Shown in pieces: positions 3,329 to 46,394 of a DNA stretch of 64,000 nt; position 1 is the first letter of the stretch; each line of letters starts with the position of its first letter. Location: the NCBI RefSeq assembly GCF_014192415.1, contig NZ_JACHXY010000002.1, positions 372,001 through 436,000 on the forward strand, written 5' to 3'. The translations under genes were made by a program, and so were the position numbers. The stretch comes from Microbacterium proteolyticum. GTDB taxonomy: Bacteria; Actinomycetota; Actinomycetes; Actinomycetales; Microbacteriaceae. Below the pieces are notes generated by a model that was given only the letters and a program-made list of their open reading frames with translations, was not told the DNA's origin and did not search any database.

Positions 3329-5170
3329 CTACGAGACGATCAGGCGCTGCCTGTCGGCATCCAGCTCGCGGAGCCGAAGGCGCAGGCGGCGCCCCTCTTC
3401 CGAGTCGGCCGGCACGCGCTGGATGCCGCGGAGCAGGTCGTCTTTCTCGCGCTGCAGCTGACGCACCAGGAGACCCCGGGCGAGATCGTTCGCCGAGGCC
3501 ACCGCACCCTCTTCGGTGCGCGCGGGGAACTCCGCGGTCAGCAGCTCGGCGGCGAGCGAACGGAACGGCTCGCGGACCGCCTCGACGGCCGCGACCGCCC
3601 ACCCGGGCTGCGACAAATCGGTGGATGCCAGCGAGGTGCGCACGGCTTCGAGGGCGGGGTGGCCGAACGGCAGCTGCAGGGCGCGGAGGAACACGTCGGG
3701 CTCGATACGGTGCCCGTACTGCAGGAACGCCATCATCGCTCCCCGCTCGAGGGCGACGTCGCGCGTGTTCGGCAGCGACGCCATCGTGACCGACACCGCG
3801 ACGGGTGCGGGTTCGGCGACGCGGGCGTTCTCGCGCTGCTCGGCACGGTCGGCCCCGCGGGCGGCACGCTCCACGGCGGCCTGCACGTCGGGCATGTCGA
3901 GGCCGAGGCGACGGGCGAGGACCCGGACGTACCCGGGACGAAGGGAGGGGTCGCGGATGTCGGCGACGATGGGCGCCGCCGCGCGGAGCGCACCGGCGCG
4001 GCCCTCGACGCTGGCCAGGTCGAAGTCCTTCAGGCGTTGATCGATGACGAACTCGAACATCGGGTTCTTGTTCTCCATGAGTGCGCGCACGGCACCGTCG
4101 CCCCGCTGCAGGCGCAGATCGCAGGGATCGAGCCCCTCGGGCGCCACCGCCACGTAGGTCTGCGCCGCGAAACGCTTCTCGTCGGCGAAGGCGCGCAGCG
4201 CCGCCTTCTGGCCCGCGGCATCGGGGTCGAAGGTGAAGACGACCTCGCCCGACGAGCTGTCGTCGCCCATGACGCGGCGGAGCACCGTGATGTGATCGGT
4301 GCCGAAAGCCGTGCCGCACGAGGCGATCGCCGTGGTGACCCCCGCGAGGTGGCACGCCATGACATCGGTGTACCCCTCGACCACGACCACCCGGTGCGAT
4401 CGTGAGATGTCGCGCTTGGCAAGATCGAGGCCGTACAGCACCTGCGACTTCTTGTAGATGATCGTTTCGGGGGTGTTGAGGTACTTCGGGCCCTGGTCGT
4501 CGTCGTGCAGCTTTCGGGCACCGAAGCCGATGACCTGGCCCGTCACGTCGCGGATCGGCCAGATCAGTCGCCCGCGGAAGCGGTCGTAGACTCCCCCGCG
4601 TTGATTGGTCGACACCAGCCCCGCCTTCTCGAGCTCGTCTCGGGAGAACTTCTGCGCCGTCAGATGGTCGAACAGATTCGACCACCCTTTCGGGGCGTAG
4701 CCCACGCCGAAGTGGGCCGCCGCTCCCGCGTCGAAGCCGCGGTCGCCGAGGAAGCGCCGACCGATCTCGGCCTCGGGAGTCATCAACTGGGAGCGGAAGT
4801 ACTCGGTCGCGGCCGCATTCGCCGCGTACAACCGCGAACGTCCCGTGGTCTCGGGGGCCGCTCCCCCGTCTTCGTAGTGCAGGGTGAAGCCGACGCGCGC
4901 GGCCATGCGCTCGACCGCCTCGGTGAACGACACGTGGTCCAACGCGCGCAGGAACGAGTAGACGTCACCCGACTCGCCGCAGCCGAAGCAGTGGTAATAC
5001 CCGACCTGCGGGCGCACGTTGAAGCTGGGCGACCGCTCATCGTGGAAGGGGCAGAGGCCCTTCATCGACCCGACGCCGGCGGGCTTCAGCGCCACGCGTT
5101 CGCCGATCACATCGGCGATGTTGACCCGCGCCTTCACCTCGTCGACGTCGGCCTGGCGGATGCGGGCCAT
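3329..5170 (-). CDS. dnaG: DNA primase
   Basis: A 613-residue replicative primase that makes RNA primers at the fork. The CHC2 zinc-binding domain is at the N-terminus with Cys40, His43, Cys61 and Cys64 (CPFH...CFGC). The catalytic core carries the TOPRIM motifs VEGYTDV (264-270) and FDPD (314-317). A helicase-interacting C-terminal domain follows, ending LDADRQRLIVS. The start ATG (MARIRQADVDEV) overlaps by one base the TGA of dgt upstream, giving a coupled dus-dgt-dnaG unit. This dgt-dnaG pairing is common in Actinobacteria. Confidence 0.97.
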   Translation of the reverse strand: MARIRQADVDEVKARVNIADVIGERVALKPAGVGSMKGLCPFHDERSPSFNVRPQVGYYHCFGCGESGDVYSFLRALDHVSFTEAVERMAARVGFTLHYEDGGAAPETTGRSRLYAANAAATEYFRSQLMTPEAEIGRRFLGDRGFDAGAAAHFGVGYAPKGWSNLFDHLTAQKFSRDELEKAGLVSTNQRGGVYDRFRGRLIWPIRDVTGQVIGFGARKLHDDDQGPKYLNTPETIIYKKSQVLYGLDLAKRDISRSHRVVVVEGYTDVMACHLAGVTTAIASCGTAFGTDHITVLRRVMGDDSSSGEVVFTFDPDAAGQKAALRAFADEKRFAAQTYVAVAPEGLDPCDLRLQRGDGAVRALMENKNPMFEFVIDQRLKDFDLASVEGRAGALRAAAPIVADIRDPSLRPGYVRVLARRLGLDMPDVQAAVERAARGADRAEQRENARVAEPAPVAVSVTMASLPNTRDVALERGAMMAFLQYGHRIEPDVFLRALQLPFGHPALEAVRTSLASTDLSQPGWAVAAVEAVREPFRSLAAELLTAEFPARTEEGAVASANDLARGLLVRQLQREKDDLLRGIQRVPADSEEGRRLRLRLRELDADRQRLIVS

Positions 5171-6486
5171 CAGGCATCCGCTCCCCGTGCGGCGCGCGCG
5201 CCGGGTGCCCACACGCCGAGTTCGGCAGCATCCACGTCGCCGACGAGTCGGCCGTGCCAGGCGATCGCGAGTTGATCGGTGAGGCTCGCCACCTGGTCGA
5301 CGACGACGCGGCGACGTGCGGTGTCGTCTGCGGCCGCGGCGAAATCGGGCGCGTGCAGCGCGTCGAGGGTACCGGGGTTCTCCCACATCGCGGATGCCAG
5401 ACGCTTCAGCACGTTGCGCTGCTCGCGGTAGAGCACCTTGCGGCCGTCGATCGAGACGACGGTGGCGCCGATGATGCCCTTGAGCACCGCCATCTCGACC
5501 TCGACCTCGGCCGGAACGACGACGTGCGCCCGGTAGCGCGTGAGCTGGTCGGCGGGGTACGCCTCGCGGGTGGCCGCGGTGGCGGCGCGCGCGAAGCGAC
5601 CGATGAGGTCGGAGGTGAGGTTCTTCAAGCGTGCGAGGGCGGGACGGGTCCCGTCGAAGGACGGGATCCACTCCGGCATCGCCATGAGTCGCTCGAGTCC
5701 GGCATCGAGGTCGTCGCGCACGAAGTCGTACCCGACCCAGCGTTGGATCGCGTCGAGCAGACCCTCGCGGCCGACCCGGGATGCCAGGCGCGCGGGGTCG
5801 ACGTACCGGTTGACCATCGCGTCTTCGAAGTCGTGCACCGAATAGGCGATGTCGTCGGAGAGGTCCATGACCTCGGCCTCGATGCACCGCTGACGGGCGG
5901 GCGCGCCGCCGCGCATCCACTGGAAGACCGGCTCGTCGTCGGGGTAGACACCGAACTTCAGGCGCCCGCCGGGGTCGGGCACGGGCTCGTCGGCTGTCCA
6001 CGGGTACTTGCAGGTGGCGTCGAGGCTCGACCGGGTGAGGTTCAGTCCGAACGGCTCGCCGTCGGCACCGAAGACCTTGGGCTCGAGGCGGGTGAGGATG
6101 CGCAGCGTCTGCGCGTTGCCCTCGAACCCCCCGATGTCCTCCGCCCATTCGTTGAGCGCGCGTTCGCCGTTGTGGCCGAACGGCGGGTGCCCGAGGTCGT
6201 GGCTCAAGCACGCCGTGTCGACGACGTCGGGCGAGAGCTGCAAGGCGGTCGCGAGCTCGCGGCCGACCTGGGCCACCTCGAGCGAGTGCGTGAGCCGGTT
6301 GCGGGCGAAGTCGGCGGGACTCGCGGGGCTCAGCACCTGGGTCTTCGCGGCGAGCCGGCGAAGGGCCGCGGAATGCAGCACGCGGGCACGGTCTCGCGCG
6401 AAGTCGTCACGCCGCGAGCGGTGCTCCTCGACGTGGAAGCGGGCAGCGTCCGCATCGTCGTACCCGAGCGGGCGGGCGGCCGTCAC
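5170..6486 (-). CDS. dgt: Deoxyguanosinetriphosphate triphosphohydrolase (HD-domain dNTPase)
   Basis: A 438-residue dNTP triphosphohydrolase with the HD metal site: His67 in LTHSLEVAQVG, then SHDLGHPPFGHNGE (residues 95-108) supplying His96-Asp97 and further histidines. It should hydrolyse dGTP or dNTPs to the nucleoside and triphosphate, limiting the pool near the primase gene it is coupled to. Start choice is uncertain: GTG at 6486 (VTAARPLGYDD) or GTG at 6501, which overlaps the dus stop by 8 nt; GAGGTC precedes the first. The end overlaps dnaG by one base. Confidence 0.93.
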   Translation of the reverse strand: MTAARPLGYDDADAARFHVEEHRSRRDDFARDRARVLHSAALRRLAAKTQVLSPASPADFARNRLTHSLEVAQVGRELATALQLSPDVVDTACLSHDLGHPPFGHNGERALNEWAEDIGGFEGNAQTLRILTRLEPKVFGADGEPFGLNLTRSSLDATCKYPWTADEPVPDPGGRLKFGVYPDDEPVFQWMRGGAPARQRCIEAEVMDLSDDIAYSVHDFEDAMVNRYVDPARLASRVGREGLLDAIQRWVGYDFVRDDLDAGLERLMAMPEWIPSFDGTRPALARLKNLTSDLIGRFARAATAATREAYPADQLTRYRAHVVVPAEVEVEMAVLKGIIGATVVSIDGRKVLYREQRNVLKRLASAMWENPGTLDALHAPDFAAAADDTARRRVVVDQVASLTDQLAIAWHGRLVGDVDAAELGVWAPGARAARGADA

Positions 6487-7740: not shown

Positions 7741-8424
7741 TCAGGCGTCGGCGGTCGCGGATGCCTCGCGACGCTCGCCCCACACCTGGCGGGCGATCTG
7801 CGTGAACGCCTCGACCGGCTGTGCACCGCTCACGCCGTACTTGCCGTCGATGACGAAGAACGGAACGCCCGTGATGCCGAACTGCTGCGCCTGTGCCTGG
7901 TCGGCGCGCACCGCGGCGCGGTAGCGCTGCGACGCGAGCGCATCGCGCGCGGCATCCTCGTCCAGTCCCGCCTCGACGGCGAGCTGCACGAGATCTTCAT
8001 CGCGCCCGACGTGCTTGCCCTCGAGGAAGTACGCCGACATGAGGATCTCGGCGAGTTCGAGCTGACGCCCGTTCTCTTTCGCGAAGTGCAGCAGCTCATG
8101 TGCCTTGACGGTGTTGGTGTGCTTGAGGAGATCGAAACGGTAGGTGAGCCCCGCGTCGGCGGCGACGCCGGTGACCCGATCGAGCATCTCCCGCGCCGAC
8201 TCGGGCGAGATGCCCTTGTGCTGCGAGAGGTAGTCGACCTCTCCCCCGTCGAAGTCCTCGGGGGTGTCGGGTGAGAGCTCGAACGAGTGGTACTCGATCT
8301 CGACGACCGGGGCGTCGTCGTCGCCGGCCGTGGCGGCCAGGCCGTTCTCGAGGTTCCGCTTGCCGATGTAGCACCAGGGGCAGGCGATGTCGCTCCACAC
8401 GTCGATCTTGATGGCATCCGTCAT
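7741..8424 (-). CDS. DsbA family oxidoreductase, FrnE-type
   Basis: A 227-residue thioredoxin-fold protein with the active site CPWC at residues 15-18 (IACPWCYIGKRNLE) and an inserted helical domain, then the cis-Pro block GITGVPFFVIDG near residue 180. No signal peptide is present, so it is cytosolic, as for the FrnE/2-hydroxychromene isomerase-like branch of the DsbA superfamily. Disulfide isomerase activity is known for a FrnE homologue in Deinococcus; the substrate here is unknown. The ATG at 8424 (MTDAIKIDVWSD) follows CCGGAAGG. Confidence 0.9.
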   Translation of the reverse strand: MTDAIKIDVWSDIACPWCYIGKRNLENGLAATAGDDDAPVVEIEYHSFELSPDTPEDFDGGEVDYLSQHKGISPESAREMLDRVTGVAADAGLTYRFDLLKHTNTVKAHELLHFAKENGRQLELAEILMSAYFLEGKHVGRDEDLVQLAVEAGLDEDAARDALASQRYRAAVRADQAQAQQFGITGVPFFVIDGKYGVSGAQPVEAFTQIARQVWGERREASATADA

Positions 8425-8488
8425 ATCGCGTGCAACCTTCCGGGTCGTGGGTCTATTCCGCTGTCGGCATCCGTCAGGATGCGTCTCC

Positions 8489-9292
8489 TCACGCGGTCGG
8501 GGTATCGACCGCGCCACCGAAGCGGCGGTCGCGTGACAGGTACAGCCCGATCGCGTCCCACAGGTGCGTACGACGGAAATCGGGCCACAGTGTGTCGAGG
8601 AACACCATCTCGGCGTAGGCCGACTCCCACAGCAGGAAGTTCGAGGTGCGCTGCTCGCCGCTGGAACGGACGAACAGGTCGACGTCGGGCATGTCGGGCT
8701 GGTAGAGGTTCTTGCGGATCAGCTTCTCGGTCACCGCCGAGGGCTTGAGGCGTCCGGCGGCGATGTCGTCGCCGATGCGGCGCATGGCATCCACGATCTC
8801 GATGCGTCCGCCGTAGTTGACGCACATCGTGAGGGTCAGGGTGGAATTGCCCTCGGTCAGGCGCTCGGCGTGCTGCAGTTCCTTGATGACCGATCCCCAC
8901 AGGCGGGGCTTACGGCCCGACCAGCGGATGCGCACGCCCCACTCGTTCAGCTGGTCGCGGCGGCGGTGCAGAACCTCGCGGTTGAAGCCCATGAGGAAGC
9001 GCACCTCGTCGGGTGAGCGCGACCAGTTCTCGGTCGAGAAGGCGTAGACCGACAGATGCTTCACGCCGGCTTGGATGGCGCCGGCGACGACGTCGAGCAG
9101 CGCCGCCTCTCCCGCCCTGTGGCCCTCGACGCGTGTGAGACCCTGACGGTTCGCCCATCGGCCGTTGCCGTCCATGACGATGGCGACGTGCTCGGGCACC
9201 GCGCCCCGCGGGTAGGACGGCGGGTACTCCCCGGTCCAGTCGAGCGGGCGGTAGGGAACCGCGTCGCGGTGCGTGAACGGCTTCGGTGTCAT
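8489..9292 (-). CDS. uppS: Isoprenyl (undecaprenyl) diphosphate synthase
   Basis: A 267-residue cis-prenyltransferase that builds the polyprenyl diphosphate carrier for cell-wall synthesis. The diphosphate-binding motif [13 protein letters not shown] (35-47) has catalytic Asp41, and further conserved blocks are YAFSTENW and [13 protein letters not shown]. The length fits family members with a short N-terminal extension. Its ATG overlaps the recO stop by 4 nt (ATGA), so recO-uppS are co-translated, as in many actinobacteria. Chain length (C50 or C55) cannot be told from sequence by eye. Confidence 0.96.
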
Positions 9293-41564: not shown

Positions 41565-41637
41565 GGGCCTGTGGCGCAGCTGGTAGCGCACCTGCATGGC
41601 ATGCAGGGGGTCAGGGGTTCGAGTCCCCTCAGGTCCA
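41565..41637 (+). tRNA. tRNA-Ala (GGC)
   Basis: Acceptor GGGCCTG pairs with CAGGTCC (one G-T), D-arm GCGCAGCTGGTAGCGC, anticodon stem CCTGC/GCAGG with loop ATGGCAT giving anticodon GGC, variable loop, and T-arm GGGTTCGAGTCCC... The 3' CCA is not encoded (discriminator A followed by CAC). A -10-like TAAGCT at 41522-41527 overlaps the preceding stop codon. Confidence 0.96.
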
Positions 41638-41646
41638 CACACAGAG

Positions 41647-41848: not shown

Positions 41849-43231
41849 TCAGCGCGACGAGACCGGCACGCGCGTCCGCGAGGTCTGCGCCTCGCGCATG
41901 ACGAGCTCGTCGTCGAGCCAGTTCGGCGCCTTGTTGCGCAGGGCGAAGATGTAGACAGCGAGGGATGCGGCGATGATGATCGTCACGTAGACGATGAACA
42001 GCGGCACCTGCTCGGTGCTCTGGGCTCCGGCGTACAACAGGGGCGCGGTGCCACCGAACAGGGAGTTGGCGAGGGCGTATCCGAGACCGACACCCAAAGC
42101 ACGCACGTGCGTGGGGAAGAGCTGCGCCTTCACGAGCGCGTTGATCGAGGTGTAGCCGGTGAGGATGACGAAACCGCCGAACAGGATCGCGAAGGCCGCG
42201 AACTCGTTCGTCTGCTGCGGGAGCATCGTGATGAGGAACCACGTGTACAGCACGCCGCCGACGCCGAAGAAGACCAGGAGCGACTTGCGGCCGACCTTGT
42301 CGCTCAGCCAGCCGCCGAGGGGCTGCATGAGCATCAGAGCGGTCAGGGCGATGAGGTTGATCACGGTGCCGGTGATCACGTCACCACCCGAGAAGGCGGT
42401 CTTGACGATGTTGGGACCGGTGACCGAGTAGGTGTAGAACGCGACCGTTCCGCCCGCGGTGACGGCGAAGCAGAGCAAGAGCGGACGCCAGTTGTTCACG
42501 AGGAGGTCGCGCATCGAGCCCGAGTCCTTCGACCGGCCCGACTTGGTGTCGTCGATGACGCTCTTCTCCAGCGATTCGTCCATCGTGCGCCGCATCCAGA
42601 AGACCGCGACCGCCGCGACACCGCCGATGGCGAACGCGACGCGCCAGCCCCACGACGTGATCGCTTCCTCGTCGAGAGTGAGCACCATGACGAGCAGGGT
42701 CGTCTGAGCCAGCACGTGACCGCCGACGAGGGTGACGTAGTGGAACGAAGAGAGGAAGCCGCGTCGGCCGGGCATGGCGGCCTCCGACATGTAGGTCGCG
42801 CTCGTACCGTATTCGCCACCGGTCGCGAAGCCCTGCACGAGACGGGCGAACACCAGGATGACGACGGCGCCGACGCCGATCATCTCGGCGGTGGGGGCGA
42901 AGGCGATGATCAGAGAGCAGAACGCCATCAGCGAGACCGACACCGTCAGGGACAGCCGTCGACCGTGTCGGTCGGCGAAGCGGCCGAAGAACCATGAGCC
43001 GATGGGGCGCATGAGGAAGGTGACGGCGAAGATCGCCCACACGTAGATGGTCGAATTCTTGTCATCGGAACTGAAGAACTGCGACTCGAAGTAGACCGCG
43101 AACACCGAATAGACGTAGACGTCGTACCATTCGACGAGGTTGCCCGCCGAGCCTTTTAGGGTGTTCGAGATGGAGCGTCGAAGGCTCGTGGGGATCGTGG
43201 TCGTGGTGGCCGGTGTTGTCGTCGTTGACAT
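41849..43231 (-). CDS. MHS family MFS transporter (KgtP-like)
   Basis: A 460-residue, 12-helix major facilitator. GNLVEWYDVYVYSVFAVYF near residue 30 and the loop 2-3 motif GRFADRHGRRLSLT (about 90) are hallmarks of the metabolite:H+ symporter branch that takes up 2-oxoglutarate, citrate, shikimate or proline/betaine. FARLVQGFATGGEYGTSATY is also diagnostic. ATG at 43231 (MSTTTTPATTTT) was chosen as the start of family homology. It is divergent from a response regulator/kinase/TAXI operon that probably controls it, suggesting a di- or tricarboxylate substrate. Confidence 0.9.
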   Translation of the reverse strand: MSTTTTPATTTTIPTSLRRSISNTLKGSAGNLVEWYDVYVYSVFAVYFESQFFSSDDKNSTIYVWAIFAVTFLMRPIGSWFFGRFADRHGRRLSLTVSVSLMAFCSLIIAFAPTAEMIGVGAVVILVFARLVQGFATGGEYGTSATYMSEAAMPGRRGFLSSFHYVTLVGGHVLAQTTLLVMVLTLDEEAITSWGWRVAFAIGGVAAVAVFWMRRTMDESLEKSVIDDTKSGRSKDSGSMRDLLVNNWRPLLLCFAVTAGGTVAFYTYSVTGPNIVKTAFSGGDVITGTVINLIALTALMLMQPLGGWLSDKVGRKSLLVFFGVGGVLYTWFLITMLPQQTNEFAAFAILFGGFVILTGYTSINALVKAQLFPTHVRALGVGLGYALANSLFGGTAPLLYAGAQSTEQVPLFIVYVTIIIAASLAVYIFALRNKAPNWLDDELVMREAQTSRTRVPVSSR

Positions 43232-43350
43232 GCGAGATCCGATCGATCGATGGACGATTCTCGTCTCGTTCGCCACAGGGATGTCCCGGCGACGACGACG
43301 AGGCGTATGCCGACATCCTGTCGACGATCGGCGGCCCTCCGTGCGGATCC

Positions 43351-43367
43351 TTACATCCGCCTTACAT
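43351..43367 (+). promoter_or_regulatory. TTACAT direct repeat, 11-bp spacing: probable response-regulator site
   Basis: TTACAT at 43351-43356 and 43362-43367 (TTACATCCGCC then TTACATTCGCG), one helical turn apart, is the arrangement bound by OmpR-family dimers. It lies 42 bp upstream of the -10 element of the regulator gene and 120 bp upstream of the divergent permease start. Confidence 0.6.
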
Positions 43368-43408
43368 TCGCGCCCGGCCCGCCGCGGTTCCCTGCGCAGG
43401 GGCATGCC

Positions 43409-43414
43409 TACGAT
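43409..43414 (+). promoter_or_regulatory. -10 element for response regulator operon (leaderless)
   Basis: TACGAT ends 6 nt before the ATG at 43421. Confidence 0.5.
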
Positions 43415-43420
43415 GAAGAC

Positions 43421-44077
43421 ATGCACGTACTCGTGGCCGAGGACGACGGCTCCGTCGCCGCAGCGCTCGCCTCGGCATTGCAGCGCGCCGGCCACGCGAG
43501 CACGCGCGTCAGCCGAGGGAGCGACGTGCTGCTGCGCCACCGTGACGCGCAGGTCGTGCTGCTCGACCTGGGCCTGGAAGACATGGACGGCCTCGACGCC
43601 CTCCGCCAGCTGCGCGCGGTGAGTGACATTCCGGTCATCGTCGTCACCGCGCGCGGCGACGAGCGCTCGACGGTGCGGGCGCTGTCGCTCGGTGCCGACG
43701 ACTACCTGGTCAAGCCGGTGCGCCTGCACGAGCTACTCGCTCGCCTGCTCGCGGTCACCCGCCGCTACAGCCCTCCGGAGGAGCCCACGCGCGTGCAGGT
43801 CGGTTCGGTCGACATCGACGTCGACGCCCGACGCGTGACCGCCGACGGGCGCGAGGTGGCGCTCACTCCCAACGAGTTCGGCATCCTGGTCTCGCTCGCC
43901 CGGCGTACGGGCCAGATCGTCAGCCGTCCGCAGGTGCTCGACGACGTATGGGGCGACGCGTACGCGACGTCGTCGCGCTCGTTCGACGTGCACCTGGGTC
44001 AGGTGCGCCAGAAGCTCCCCGAACTGACCATCACCACGATTCGCGGCGTCGGCTACCGCCTCGAGGATGCCGGATGA
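43421..44077 (+). CDS. OmpR/TctD-type response regulator
   Basis: A 218-residue two-domain regulator: receiver with acidic pocket Asp8/Asp9, phospho-acceptor Asp49 (VVLLDLGL), Thr76 (VVTARGD) and Lys98 (LVKPV); C-terminal winged helix with LTPNEFGILVSLARRTGQIVS and SSRSFDVHLGQVRQKL in blocks along residues 145-195. It should bind the TTACAT repeat upstream and control itself and the divergent permease. Overlaps the kinase gene by 4 nt. Confidence 0.93.
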   Translation: MHVLVAEDDGSVAAALASALQRAGHASTRVSRGSDVLLRHRDAQVVLLDLGLEDMDGLDALRQLRAVSDIPVIVVTARGDERSTVRALSLGADDYLVKPVRLHELLARLLAVTRRYSPPEEPTRVQVGSVDIDVDARRVTADGREVALTPNEFGILVSLARRTGQIVSRPQVLDDVWGDAYATSSRSFDVHLGQVRQKLPELTITTIRGVGYRLEDAG

Positions 44078-45462
44078 AGGTGCGCGTCCTGCTGCCGCTG
44101 CTCGTCTTCGGGCTGATCGCGGTGGTTGCCGTGCTCATCCCCGTCGCCCAGTCGATCGCCGACTCCCGCACGCAGCAGCTCGCCCTGCAGCGAACCGCCG
44201 CCCTCGACCAGGTGGTGCAGCGTGCCCGTACCGCGCTCGTGCAGGGCGACGCCGAGGGTCTCCAGACCTACTTGCAGCGCTTCCACGCGGTCTACGCCGA
44301 ATCGGTGCTCGTGCTCGATGAGAGCGGGGATGCCGTCGCCTCCGCCGGCGACGTGTCGCGCGACGAGCGTGTCGACGCGCTCGTGACCGCGGCATCCCGA
44401 GCTCTCCCCCAGCTCGTGCTCCCCCGTGTCACACCCTGGGGCGCGGACACGGCCGTCGTAGCCGTGCCGGTGATCGCCGCCGGCGACCTGTCGACCGGCG
44501 TCGTCGTGCTGGCCGTCGACCTCCGCGACGCGCAGACGGACGTGTCGCGCGCCTGGGCCGTGATCGTCGTGGTCGGCGTGCTGCTGCTCAGTGCTCTGAT
44601 GGGCGCGTCGTTGCTGTGGACACGGTGGATCCTGCGTCCGGTGCGCGCCCTCGACGCCGCCGTCGCCGACGTCACCGCCCACCGCGACCCCACGCCCCTG
44701 CGCCCCTCCGGCCCGCCCGAACTGCGACGACTGAGCCGCGCGTTCGGGGAGATGACCGCCGAGGTGGAGAGCAGCCTGGAGCAGCAGCGCGGATTCGTCG
44801 CCGACGCCTCGCATCAGTTGCGCACACCGCTCGCCGCCATCCGGCTCCGGGTCGACGGCCTCCCCCGCGGCGATGAGGCGGAGGCCGAGCTGTCAGCCGT
44901 CGACGCGGATCTCGACCGCCTCGAGCACACCGTGGAGCGCATGCTCACCCTCGCCAATGCGGAGCACCGCGCCTCGGCGCAGTCGCAGGGGCGCGACCCG
45001 GCTCGCGATGAGGGCGCCGTGCGGGAGTGTACGGTCACGGCCGATGAGATCACGGACCGTCACCGCGACCGACTGGAGGTCGCAGGGCTTCTGCTCACGA
45101 CCGCGCCGGGCCCGGCGGTGACCGTCCCGTGCGGGCGCGCCGACCTCGACGAGATGCTCGACGTGCTGTTGGACAACGCAGCCAAGTACGCCGGCCCCGC
45201 GGCCGAGGTGCACGTGGGTCTCGCACAGGATGCCGACGGCATCCGGCTCGTGGTCGAGGATTCCGGGACGCGACTCGCCGACGACGACCTCGCCCGCATG
45301 GGCACGCGGTTCTGGCGTGCCGGCCGTGACGCGACGCAGACCGGAACGGGTCTCGGACTCGCGATCGTCGCCCAGCTGATGCGCGCCGCCGGCGGGCGGC
45401 TCGACCTCGAACGCTCCGCGCACGGGGGGCTCGCGGCTCGATTGGCGTGGGAGCGATCGTGA
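44074..45462 (+). CDS. TctE-type sensor histidine kinase
   Basis: A 462-residue membrane kinase: helices at about 5-24 and 163-183 frame an extracytoplasmic sensor of about 135 residues, then HAMP, H-box with His247 (DASHQLRTPLA), N-box LLDNAAKYA and G-box GTGLGLAI. The ATG overlaps the regulator stop; the stop overlaps the TAXI gene by 4 nt (GTGA). Linkage to a binding lipoprotein suggests the sensor reads the ligand-loaded lipoprotein, as for carboxylate-sensing systems. Confidence 0.92.
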   Translation: MKVRVLLPLLVFGLIAVVAVLIPVAQSIADSRTQQLALQRTAALDQVVQRARTALVQGDAEGLQTYLQRFHAVYAESVLVLDESGDAVASAGDVSRDERVDALVTAASRALPQLVLPRVTPWGADTAVVAVPVIAAGDLSTGVVVLAVDLRDAQTDVSRAWAVIVVVGVLLLSALMGASLLWTRWILRPVRALDAAVADVTAHRDPTPLRPSGPPELRRLSRAFGEMTAEVESSLEQQRGFVADASHQLRTPLAAIRLRVDGLPRGDEAEAELSAVDADLDRLEHTVERMLTLANAEHRASAQSQGRDPARDEGAVRECTVTADEITDRHRDRLEVAGLLLTTAPGPAVTVPCGRADLDEMLDVLLDNAAKYAGPAAEVHVGLAQDADGIRLVVEDSGTRLADDDLARMGTRFWRAGRDATQTGTGLGLAIVAQLMRAAGGRLDLERSAHGGLAARLAWERS

Positions 45463-46394
45463 CGGGGCTCACGCGACGCGGGTTCCTGTGGGCGGGCATC
45501 GCGGTCGGCGCGGTCGGCGTCGCCGGTTGCTCGCGCACCCCGTCCCGCACCCTGACCCTGGGCTGCGGCGAGCCCGGCGGCAGCTACCTGCAGTTCGGCG
45601 AGCTTCTGAGTTCGGCCGCGCGCGACACCGGCGGCGTCGAGATCACCGCGCTCGTAACGGAGGGCAGCGTCGAGAACCTCGCACTGCTCGATGCAGGGGG
45701 CGTCGACCTGGCGCTCTCGCTCTCGGATTCCGCGGCCGCAGCCACCACGGGCGACGGCTTCGTCGCCATCGGCAGGGTGTACCAGAACTACCTCCAATGC
45801 CTCGTGCGCGCGGACGACGGCTTGACCTCGCTCACCGACCTCTCCGGTCGCGTCATCTCACTGGGCGCGGCGGGATCGGGAGCGGCGGCGACCGCTCGCC
45901 GGCTTCTGGATGCCGGGGGCCTGACGTCGACCTCGACGCCTCCCCGCATGATCGAACGGCCGTTCCGCGACGCGGTCGGCGATCTCGAGCAGGGCCGCAT
46001 CGACGCGCTCTTCTGGTCGGGCGGCGTTCCGACACCCCAGATCGCCGCCCTTGCCGATCGAACACCGATCCGCGTGCTCGACACGACGCCCGTCCTGCCC
46101 GAACTGTTGCGAAGGTACCCCGACGCATACGCCGCCACGACGATCCCCGCGGGCGTCTACGGCGCCGAATCGCCTGTTCCGACGATCGGCGTCGCCAACC
46201 TGCTCCTGACCCACCGCGGCCTCGATGACGACCTCGCGCGTCGCCTGGTCGACGTGCTCATCGACGACGCCGCGCGCCTCGTGCCGCCCGGTTCCCTCGG
46301 CATCCAGTACCTGACACCGGCGAGTCTGATCGACACGCTGCCCGTGCCGTTGCATTCCGCCGCCGAGCGCAGGTATCGCGAGCGGTACGGCTGA
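45459..46394 (+). CDS. TAXI family (TRAP-type) solute-binding lipoprotein
   Basis: A 311-residue binding protein with a twin-arginine-like lipoprotein signal: Arg6-Arg7 in LTRRGFLWAG and lipobox ending at Cys24 (VAGC). The mature protein follows the TAXI pattern (GCGEPGGSYLQFGELLS, then LVTEGSVENLALLDAGGVDLALS). TAXI proteins normally feed TRAP transporters, but no TRAP permease is here. It therefore may act as the sensory subunit for the kinase encoded just upstream. The GTG at 45459 was chosen for its overlap with the kinase stop. Confidence 0.9.
   Translation: MTGLTRRGFLWAGIAVGAVGVAGCSRTPSRTLTLGCGEPGGSYLQFGELLSSAARDTGGVEITALVTEGSVENLALLDAGGVDLALSLSDSAAAATTGDGFVAIGRVYQNYLQCLVRADDGLTSLTDLSGRVISLGAAGSGAAATARRLLDAGGLTSTSTPPRMIERPFRDAVGDLEQGRIDALFWSGGVPTPQIAALADRTPIRVLDTTPVLPELLRRYPDAYAATTIPAGVYGAESPVPTIGVANLLLTHRGLDDDLARRLVDVLIDDAARLVPPGSLGIQYLTPASLIDTLPVPLHSAAERRYRERYG

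Follow-up and report, generated by a model that had tools for sequence, protein, structure and literature searches.

Among the closest described systems is GluR-GluK of Streptomyces coelicolor (SCO5778/SCO5779), a regulator-kinase pair reported to regulate the divergent gluABCD genes (SCO5774-77; PMC9739842); GluR is reported to bind upstream of gluA, and GluR-GluK is described as widely distributed in Actinobacteria (PMC10345050). The available portions of these two accounts mention no partner from the TAXI family of solute-binding proteins (SBPs). In other organisms SBPs are reported to act through kinases. CuaD, a second SBP in the CuaDSR system of Ruminiclostridium cellulolyticum, binds the kinase CuaS and raises its sensitivity for the transported solute; CuaSR still responds without CuaD, and responds better with it (PMC10384115). 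In BctC-BctDE of Bordetella pertussis, the TctC-family SBP BctC is reported to be required for signalling of the kinase BctE, and in GlnH-GlnX-PknG of actinobacteria a lipoprotein SBP is the proposed amino-acid receptor for signalling across the membrane. According to the available part of a review, there are about ten characterised SBP-kinase cases, and receptors are known targets for 13 of 22 SBP families. An open literature search by title and abstract opening returned no report of a TAXI-kinase pair, a statement about that search and not about absence from print. Such a pair is encoded at positions 41849-46394 of a 64,000-nucleotide stretch of the Microbacterium proteolyticum genome (contig NZ_JACHXY010000002.1, positions 372,001 to 436,000; hereafter the window). 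It is likely that the TAXI protein of this locus acts for a GluK-type kinase as its dedicated receptor or co-receptor, and that the kinase controls the transporter encoded alongside, here an MHS permease.

The locus consists of a gene for an MHS-like permease of the MFS superfamily, the putative target of the switch (460 amino acids; 41849..43231, minus strand), and a divergent three-gene operon on the plus strand. The operon encodes an OmpR-family response regulator (218 amino acids; 43421..44077; Response_reg 79.6 bits, Trans_reg_C 72.3 bits), a GluK-type sensor histidine kinase (462 amino acids; 44074..45462; HAMP, HisKA and HATPase_c domains) and a TAXI-family lipoprotein (311 amino acids, GTG start; 45459..46394). 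Regulator and kinase genes overlap by the four nucleotides ATGA (44074-44077), kinase and TAXI genes by GTGA (45459-45462). The last protein scores 158.6 bits with PF16868 and 183.2 bits with TIGR02122 (TRAP_TAXI), above the cut-off of 84.35, and is thus a member of the TAXI family. Gene calls and Pfam and NCBIfam matches therefore agree with the original prediction of a divergent permease facing a regulator-kinase-TAXI operon with 4-nucleotide overlaps. That prediction also called the permease KgtP-like. MFS membership passes the Pfam cut-offs (Sugar_tr 124 bits, MFS_1 89.7 bits), but the name calls for caution: the matches to the two nearest NCBIfam models, PRK10406 (365.5 bits, cut-off 550) and TIGR00883 (339.5 bits, cut-off 443.45), both fall below the curated cut-offs for KgtP and the MHS subfamily.

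Like GluR-GluK, the locus pairs an OmpR-family regulator and a kinase with a divergent transporter. One profile (A1, built with both) finds the window kinase and gluABCD-linked kinases alike, and loci such as L070, L074 and others combine gluABCD-type genes with a divergent regulator and a kinase of the same sensor-domain family; the comparison with GluK runs through these gluABCD-linked kinases. It differs in that an MHS permease occupies the place of gluABCD and that the TAXI gene belongs to the operon instead of being convergent to it. In Streptomyces-like genomes (presumably Streptomyces, judging by size and gene order), the Glu-ABC genes are followed by a divergent regulator and kinase and then by a convergent TAXI gene, an order that agrees with what is reported of GluR-GluK. 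From this gene order only, SCO5780 is presumably a TAXI gene; an open literature search found no paper on it.

The window genome (3.48 Mb, 9 contigs, 99.93% complete) contains a single TAXI gene. A whole-genome search for DctM (PF06808) gave no match while matching 7 of 14 control genomes, and one for GltS (PF03616) gave none while matching 2 of 14. Neither a DctM or fused DctQM permease nor a GltS gene, linked or distant, was thus found in this genome, and the original claim that the TAXI protein has no TRAP permease now extends from the locus to the whole genome. On this point the prediction's own test, a TRAP permease elsewhere in the genome, turned out in its favour. Two TctA-type tricarboxylate permeases lie elsewhere in the genome (contig C1, 516350-517612 and 1409846-1411102). 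In a search of the genome, the window kinase matches itself with 962 bits and the runner-up kinase with 62.

One line of evidence for a TAXI-kinase partnership is its near-constant linkage across genomes. When genome contigs were scanned with the TAXI protein, 39 loci were recovered (L002-L040), many of them near relatives. By tblastn, 36 of these share the arrangement of the four genes, with TAXI identities as low as about 47%, and in a few of the 36 a gene is fragmented or truncated at the end of a contig; the other three loci are L032, L037 and L038. The class-wide sample comprised 344 genomes (the class is inferred to be Actinomycetes). TAXI was found in 127 of these at E <= 1e-20, and the kinase sensor domain, searched with a 35-row profile of that domain alone, in 109 at E <= 1e-12, the search scoring at most 12 first-look candidates per genome (72-404 candidates in the genomes listed). 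TAXI was present in 108 of the 109 genomes with the sensor domain, while 19 TAXI genomes showed none (Fisher p 4e-68, uncorrected for phylogeny). The SBP gene is also tied to the kinase gene locally, as expected of three-component systems: a TAXI gene lies near 132 of 136 kinase places. This figure comprises 89 places with a listed TAXI within 12 kb, 7 in loci already fetched (L073, L075, L077, L079, L080, L081 and L082) and 36 of the remaining 40, examined with about 5 kb on each side. Three of the four places without TAXI (L196, L206 and L225) are near contig ends, and the fourth, L229, is inside a long contig. Of 246 genomes from the wider phylum, 12 gave a match to the sensor profile; 11 belong to the class, among them that of the window, and the twelfth, from outside it, matched weakly (59 bits).

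Gene orientation is less constant than linkage. Among 134 TAXI rows, the TAXI gene is on the strand of the kinase gene in 55 and convergent to it in 44, and same-strand kinase/TAXI pairs overlap by four nucleotides in 62 of 67 cases, a few repeats included. Because the linkage survives a change of orientation, it is more than inherited gene order. The loci L123-L182 are 60 places chosen non-randomly among the matches listed (most of the non-Streptomyces-like ones scoring below about 205 bits, plus a selection from the others), and three loci are repeats of others (L116 of L031, L117 of L030, L122 of the window). In L121 the TAXI gene (7935-8844), beside a Glu-ABC kinase cassette, is split into two overlapping frames by a frameshift or a sequencing error, and L036 (6001-6907) resembles it in tblastn.

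The TAXI proteins of these cassettes form a lineage of their own. In a maximum-likelihood tree of 154 rows, built after 18 near-identical rows were dropped, one branch with an SH-like approximate likelihood ratio test (SH-aLRT) support of 99 separates 128 kinase-cassette TAXIs from 24 TRAP-linked TAXIs together with the structurally solved TtGluBP and VcGluP; the window TAXI stands on the side opposite to the TRAP-linked proteins. A first tree of 134 rows recovered the same TRAP-side group with support 99, with labels set mostly by distance, four rows unlabelled and one of the L150 tandem TRAP-side TAXIs labelled as kinase-linked. Both trees are quick searches with SH-aLRT as their only support measure. 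Two rows, L150_6914 (the tandem copy next to a TRAP gene) and L159_3193, were relabelled as transport TAXIs on the strength of their place in the first tree; L172_6929 had been labelled kinase-linked by hand before it. L032, L144 and L176, whose fetched stretches contain no kinase, were counted on the cassette side, and the split TAXI of L121 was excluded from the alignments. At L150 (5730-8900) three consecutive TAXI genes are found: one belongs to the kinase lineage, and the other two, which adjoin a DctM gene, are tandem duplicates from the TRAP lineage.

The transporter next to the cassette is exchanged among genomes. In 123 of 144 cassettes, one of six transporter families lies within 4 kb: MHS in 53 (a count inflated by close relatives), MHS together with DASS in 1, glutamate-type ABC in 27, DASS in 14, TAXI-TRAP in 11, TctA (TTT) in 11 and the SDF/DctA type in 6. 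The neighbour profiles were built from the loci themselves, examples being checked by Pfam; for the class-sample and pocket counts, L168 (DctM at just over 4 kb) and L080 (kinase score below the threshold used for the 144 cassettes) were added to the transporter lists by hand. For the class sample alone, 79 of 98 cassettes have such a transporter, according to hand-placed lists that include L168. None of 20 control stretches of 14-15 kb, placed 150 kb away from a TAXI or kinase locus in comparable genomes, contained any of the six families. The usual substrates of all six are carboxylic acids or glutamate. On the best tree the transporter label changes at least 10 times. In L118, an Nramp-family metal transporter (4263-5621) is divergent from the cassette, in the position where other genomes have a carboxylate carrier. 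Linkage, lineage split and transporter exchange together support the original prediction that the TAXI protein is the partner of the kinase and not of a transporter; the recruitment is class-wide rather than local.

A Pfam search gave no sensor-domain match for the window kinase. The full-length AlphaFold2 model (mean predicted local distance difference test (pLDDT) 88.6, predicted template modelling score 0.57) returned mostly kinase domains when compared with solved structures, and the sensor was therefore folded on its own. This extracytoplasmic domain (about residues 26-158; 44149..44547, plus strand) is predicted with a pLDDT of 94.7 to adopt a single Cache/PDC-like fold. WalK is its top match in VIA-align (Z 14.2, root-mean-square deviation 2.7, 126 aligned; three WalK/YycG entries within 1), followed by TlpQ (Z 12.2), CitA (11.9), the kinase PAS domain 3cwf (11.6), DcuS (11.5) and DctB (about 11); Foldseek returned KinD (E 3.2e-4). 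The most conserved positions are one tryptophan, two prolines and a few alanines and valines; over 35 homologues, the tryptophan is invariant and a proline near-invariant. Some of the matched structures, of the CitA, DcuS and DctB kind, were solved partly with ligand, and WalK has also been modelled with the accessory protein YycH (9a5d); the predicted fold thus allows either direct or TAXI-mediated sensing.

The main rival explanation is that the kinase senses its ligand directly through this Cache-like domain, with TAXI as a helper that concentrates or buffers the ligand or as a regulon member with another task. We consider it unlikely, but several observations point that way or weigh against a receptor role for TAXI. 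GluK of S. coelicolor is reported to bind glutamate by interferometry (PMC9739842), and the resemblance of the modelled sensor fold to CitA, DcuS and DctB means that TAXI might be unnecessary. Adjoining sbp and kinase genes are not always functionally linked, and three Pseudomonas aeruginosa SBPs encoded beside kinases showed no sensor-domain binding (PMC11113362). Linkage, moreover, is not contact. In a mirror-tree comparison over 96 cassettes, tried as evidence of contact among TAXI, sensor, kinase domain and regulator, the distance correlations of TAXI with the sensor (0.894), the kinase (0.896) and the regulator (0.919) did not single out the sensor; with all values near 0.9, they indicate a co-inherited unit and not which of its parts touch. 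L032 (Microbacterium gorillae) has a TAXI of the kinase-linked lineage without kinase or regulator. L229 (genome G842) is a real exception in the other direction, with no TAXI in the examined stretch beside the weakest kinase match (66.8 bits), which has a divergent sensor domain; the same genome has a second kinase copy, L211, with a TAXI. Furthermore, 21 of the 144 cassettes have none of the six transporter families within 4 kb, and in 12 loci with two TAXIs the pockets of the sensor and transport TAXIs matched 33 times against 29.2 expected by permutation, which is not significant (p 0.14). Direct sensing leaves unexplained why TAXI almost always accompanies the kinase and why their genes so regularly overlap. 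It can also coexist with SBP-aided sensing, as in CuaSR with and without CuaD (PMC10384115), and given the reported glutamate binding by GluK, TAXI may act as co-receptor.

Under a second explanation, TAXI would act as binding protein to the MHS permease, the two forming a new kind of binding-protein-dependent MFS transporter. Many loci link MHS with TAXI genes. In two of them, L215 and L226, regulator, kinase, MHS permease and TAXI share one strand, the permease gene being placed between those for kinase and TAXI. MFS carriers do not work by an elevator mechanism. TAXI-GltS of Bordetella pertussis, a TAXI without TRAP permease proposed as a transport system, suggests that a TAXI can serve a non-TRAP carrier, but its authors suggest that SBP use may need such a mechanism; the available part of the account mentions no kinase (PMC12344293). 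The changing neighbours of the cassette make this explanation very improbable. In L037 (Leucobacter luti) and L038 (L. chromiireducens), regulator, kinase and TAXI face a fused TRAP permease (DctM confirmed by Pfam in L037) with a second TAXI alongside, so that the TAXI of the kinase operon need not be the binding protein of the transporter. Since these kinase-operon TAXIs nest in the tree among MHS-linked cassettes of the same family, the tree indicates that the transporter was exchanged and the sensor cassette kept. The ABC, TRAP and TTT neighbours carry their own binding proteins, and a kinase-linked TAXI should therefore not be needed for transport there; the TAXI lineage also stays with the kinase beside DASS and SDF carriers. 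TRAP genes do adjoin the cassette in some genomes, then with a second TAXI.

The ligand pocket was compared with that of VcGluP, in which Y45 and S75 are reported to be important for glutamate, and the glutamine at position 93 contacts the amino group and has the strongest effect (PMC11574862). Among the MHS-linked rows, the Y45 equivalent is conserved in 46 of 51 and the S75 equivalent in all 51, so that ligand binding has probably been preserved in TAXI. Position 93 is leucine in 47 of 51 MHS-linked rows, and position 125 (VcGluP numbering) is asparagine in 47 of 51 MHS-linked rows and acidic in all 26 Glu-ABC-linked ones; position 46 is arginine in 31 of 32 DASS/TTT/DctA-linked rows. From these alignment columns, the pattern suggests that the receptor pocket follows the transported solute and that the ligand of MHS-linked TAXIs lacks an amino group. 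The equivalent glutamine of TtGluBP does not contact the amino group (PMC11574862), which speaks against the latter point. A comparison of pocket letters with transporter class on the tree found only two independent pairs on supported branches per test, a number with which significance is unreachable. That the linkage is mere inherited gene order and TAXI a leftover of a lost TRAP system, as the co-inheritance of cassette members with distance correlations near 0.9 would allow, is the least probable explanation of all, given the two gene orientations, the six transporter contexts, the retained Y45 and S75 equivalents and the separation from transport TAXIs.

The N-terminus of the window TAXI (TRRGFLW...VAGC) combines a twin-arginine motif (residues 6-7) with a lipobox (cysteine at residue 24), scored by simple pattern rather than with a signal-peptide predictor. 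The same pattern finds lipobox and paired arginines in 44 of 44 MHS-linked TAXIs, 42 of which are Tat-like. The twin-arginine-like lipoprotein signal described in the original prediction is thus present, but among MHS-linked TAXIs it is the rule and not unusual. The pattern detects no lipobox in 11 of the 20 TAXIs linked to Glu-ABC, in 5 of the 12 linked to TRAP and in 5 of the 29 other kinase-linked ones, and the result for the Glu-ABC group means that some kinase-linked TAXIs may be held at the membrane in another way. In the TAXI of L070 (7992-8924), paired arginines precede an extended hydrophobic segment that may anchor it in the membrane.

Between the permease and regulator genes lies a direct repeat, CCTTACA-N4-CCTTACA, in 11-bp phase (43349..43366, plus strand; CCTTACATCCGCCTTACA), which is a putative response-regulator box. 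An 11-bp-phased direct repeat is expected for a dimer of an OmpR-family regulator. The repeat found here is the only perfect copy in the 3.48-Mb genome, and with up to two mismatches one copy occurs in the window against 0.14 expected. At this tolerance the repeat is found upstream of the regulator in 28 of 55 MHS-labelled loci and in 0 of 95 others. Among the 41 Microbacteriaceae-type MHS loci, the same 28 have it, 8 more have it with three mismatches and 5 lack it even at three; similar repeats sit 44-143 bp upstream of the regulator. A common box for all cassettes was rejected, as CTTACA-N5-CTTACA is confined to the Microbacteriaceae-type MHS loci (up to two mismatches: 0 of 95 non-MHS and 0 of 14 other MHS-labelled loci). 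A first k-mer motif search had returned mostly GTCGTC-like words near the shuffle level. Upstream of the regulators in Glu-ABC loci (for example, L070 and L074), other words are repeated at 11 bp, namely TAACGG in 13 of 26 regions (shuffle maximum 3) and CTGAGC in 11; these are possible GluR boxes. Closely downstream of the permease gene there is a tRNA-Ala (ggc) gene (41565-41638).

Gene organisation, near-constant TAXI-kinase linkage, a separate TAXI lineage, transporter exchange, a conserved repeat and a predicted sensor fold are what was computed, and the following mechanism would fit them. TAXI would bind an extracellular carboxylate, the best guess being 2-oxoglutarate or a similar dicarboxylate. 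The ligand-bound protein would dock on the single Cache/PDC-like sensor domain and change the activity of the kinase, perhaps alongside a weaker direct sensing by the kinase itself. The phosphorylated regulator would then bind the 11-bp-phased repeat and control the MHS permease and its own operon. Physical contact, ligand, sign of regulation and binding of the regulator to the repeat are the steps that we infer.

By analogy, CuaD, BctC-BctE and GlnH-GlnX-PknG may serve as precedents for a TAXI receptor of the kinase. CuaDSR shares with the present system a sensing SBP distinct from that of the transporter, but concerns a sugar SBP and an ABC transporter in a clostridium, whereas here a TAXI-family SBP occurs class-wide beside six transporter families. 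In BctC-BctDE, likewise, signalling through a two-component system involves a carboxylate SBP from a class that serves secondary transporters; BctC, however, is of the TctC family and serves both transport and signalling, unlike a TAXI lineage that stands apart from TRAP-linked TAXIs. GlnH-GlnX-PknG differs in its SBP and membrane partner and in using a Ser/Thr kinase instead of a histidine kinase cascade. The general principle of a kinase-dedicated SBP is already known, for example from CuaDSR, which limits the surprise. The apparent novelty is that, throughout a class, one kinase family is accompanied by a TAXI lineage of its own while the transporters are exchanged.

On balance, the evidence leans slightly towards a broader scenario, in which a TAXI lineage left transport and became the plug-in receptor of one kinase family, changes in its pocket rewired the pair to at least six transporter families, and GluK works with a TAXI partner. 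If true, this would account for the many TAXI proteins that lack a TRAP permease and would give the studied Streptomyces kinase GluK a partner. A gene annotated as a TRAP transporter solute-binding subunit beside such a kinase would then probably not be a transport gene. The family would also offer a natural set in which one kinase family is paired with receptors of differing specificity, so that ligand specificity could be studied by swapping a soluble lipoprotein.

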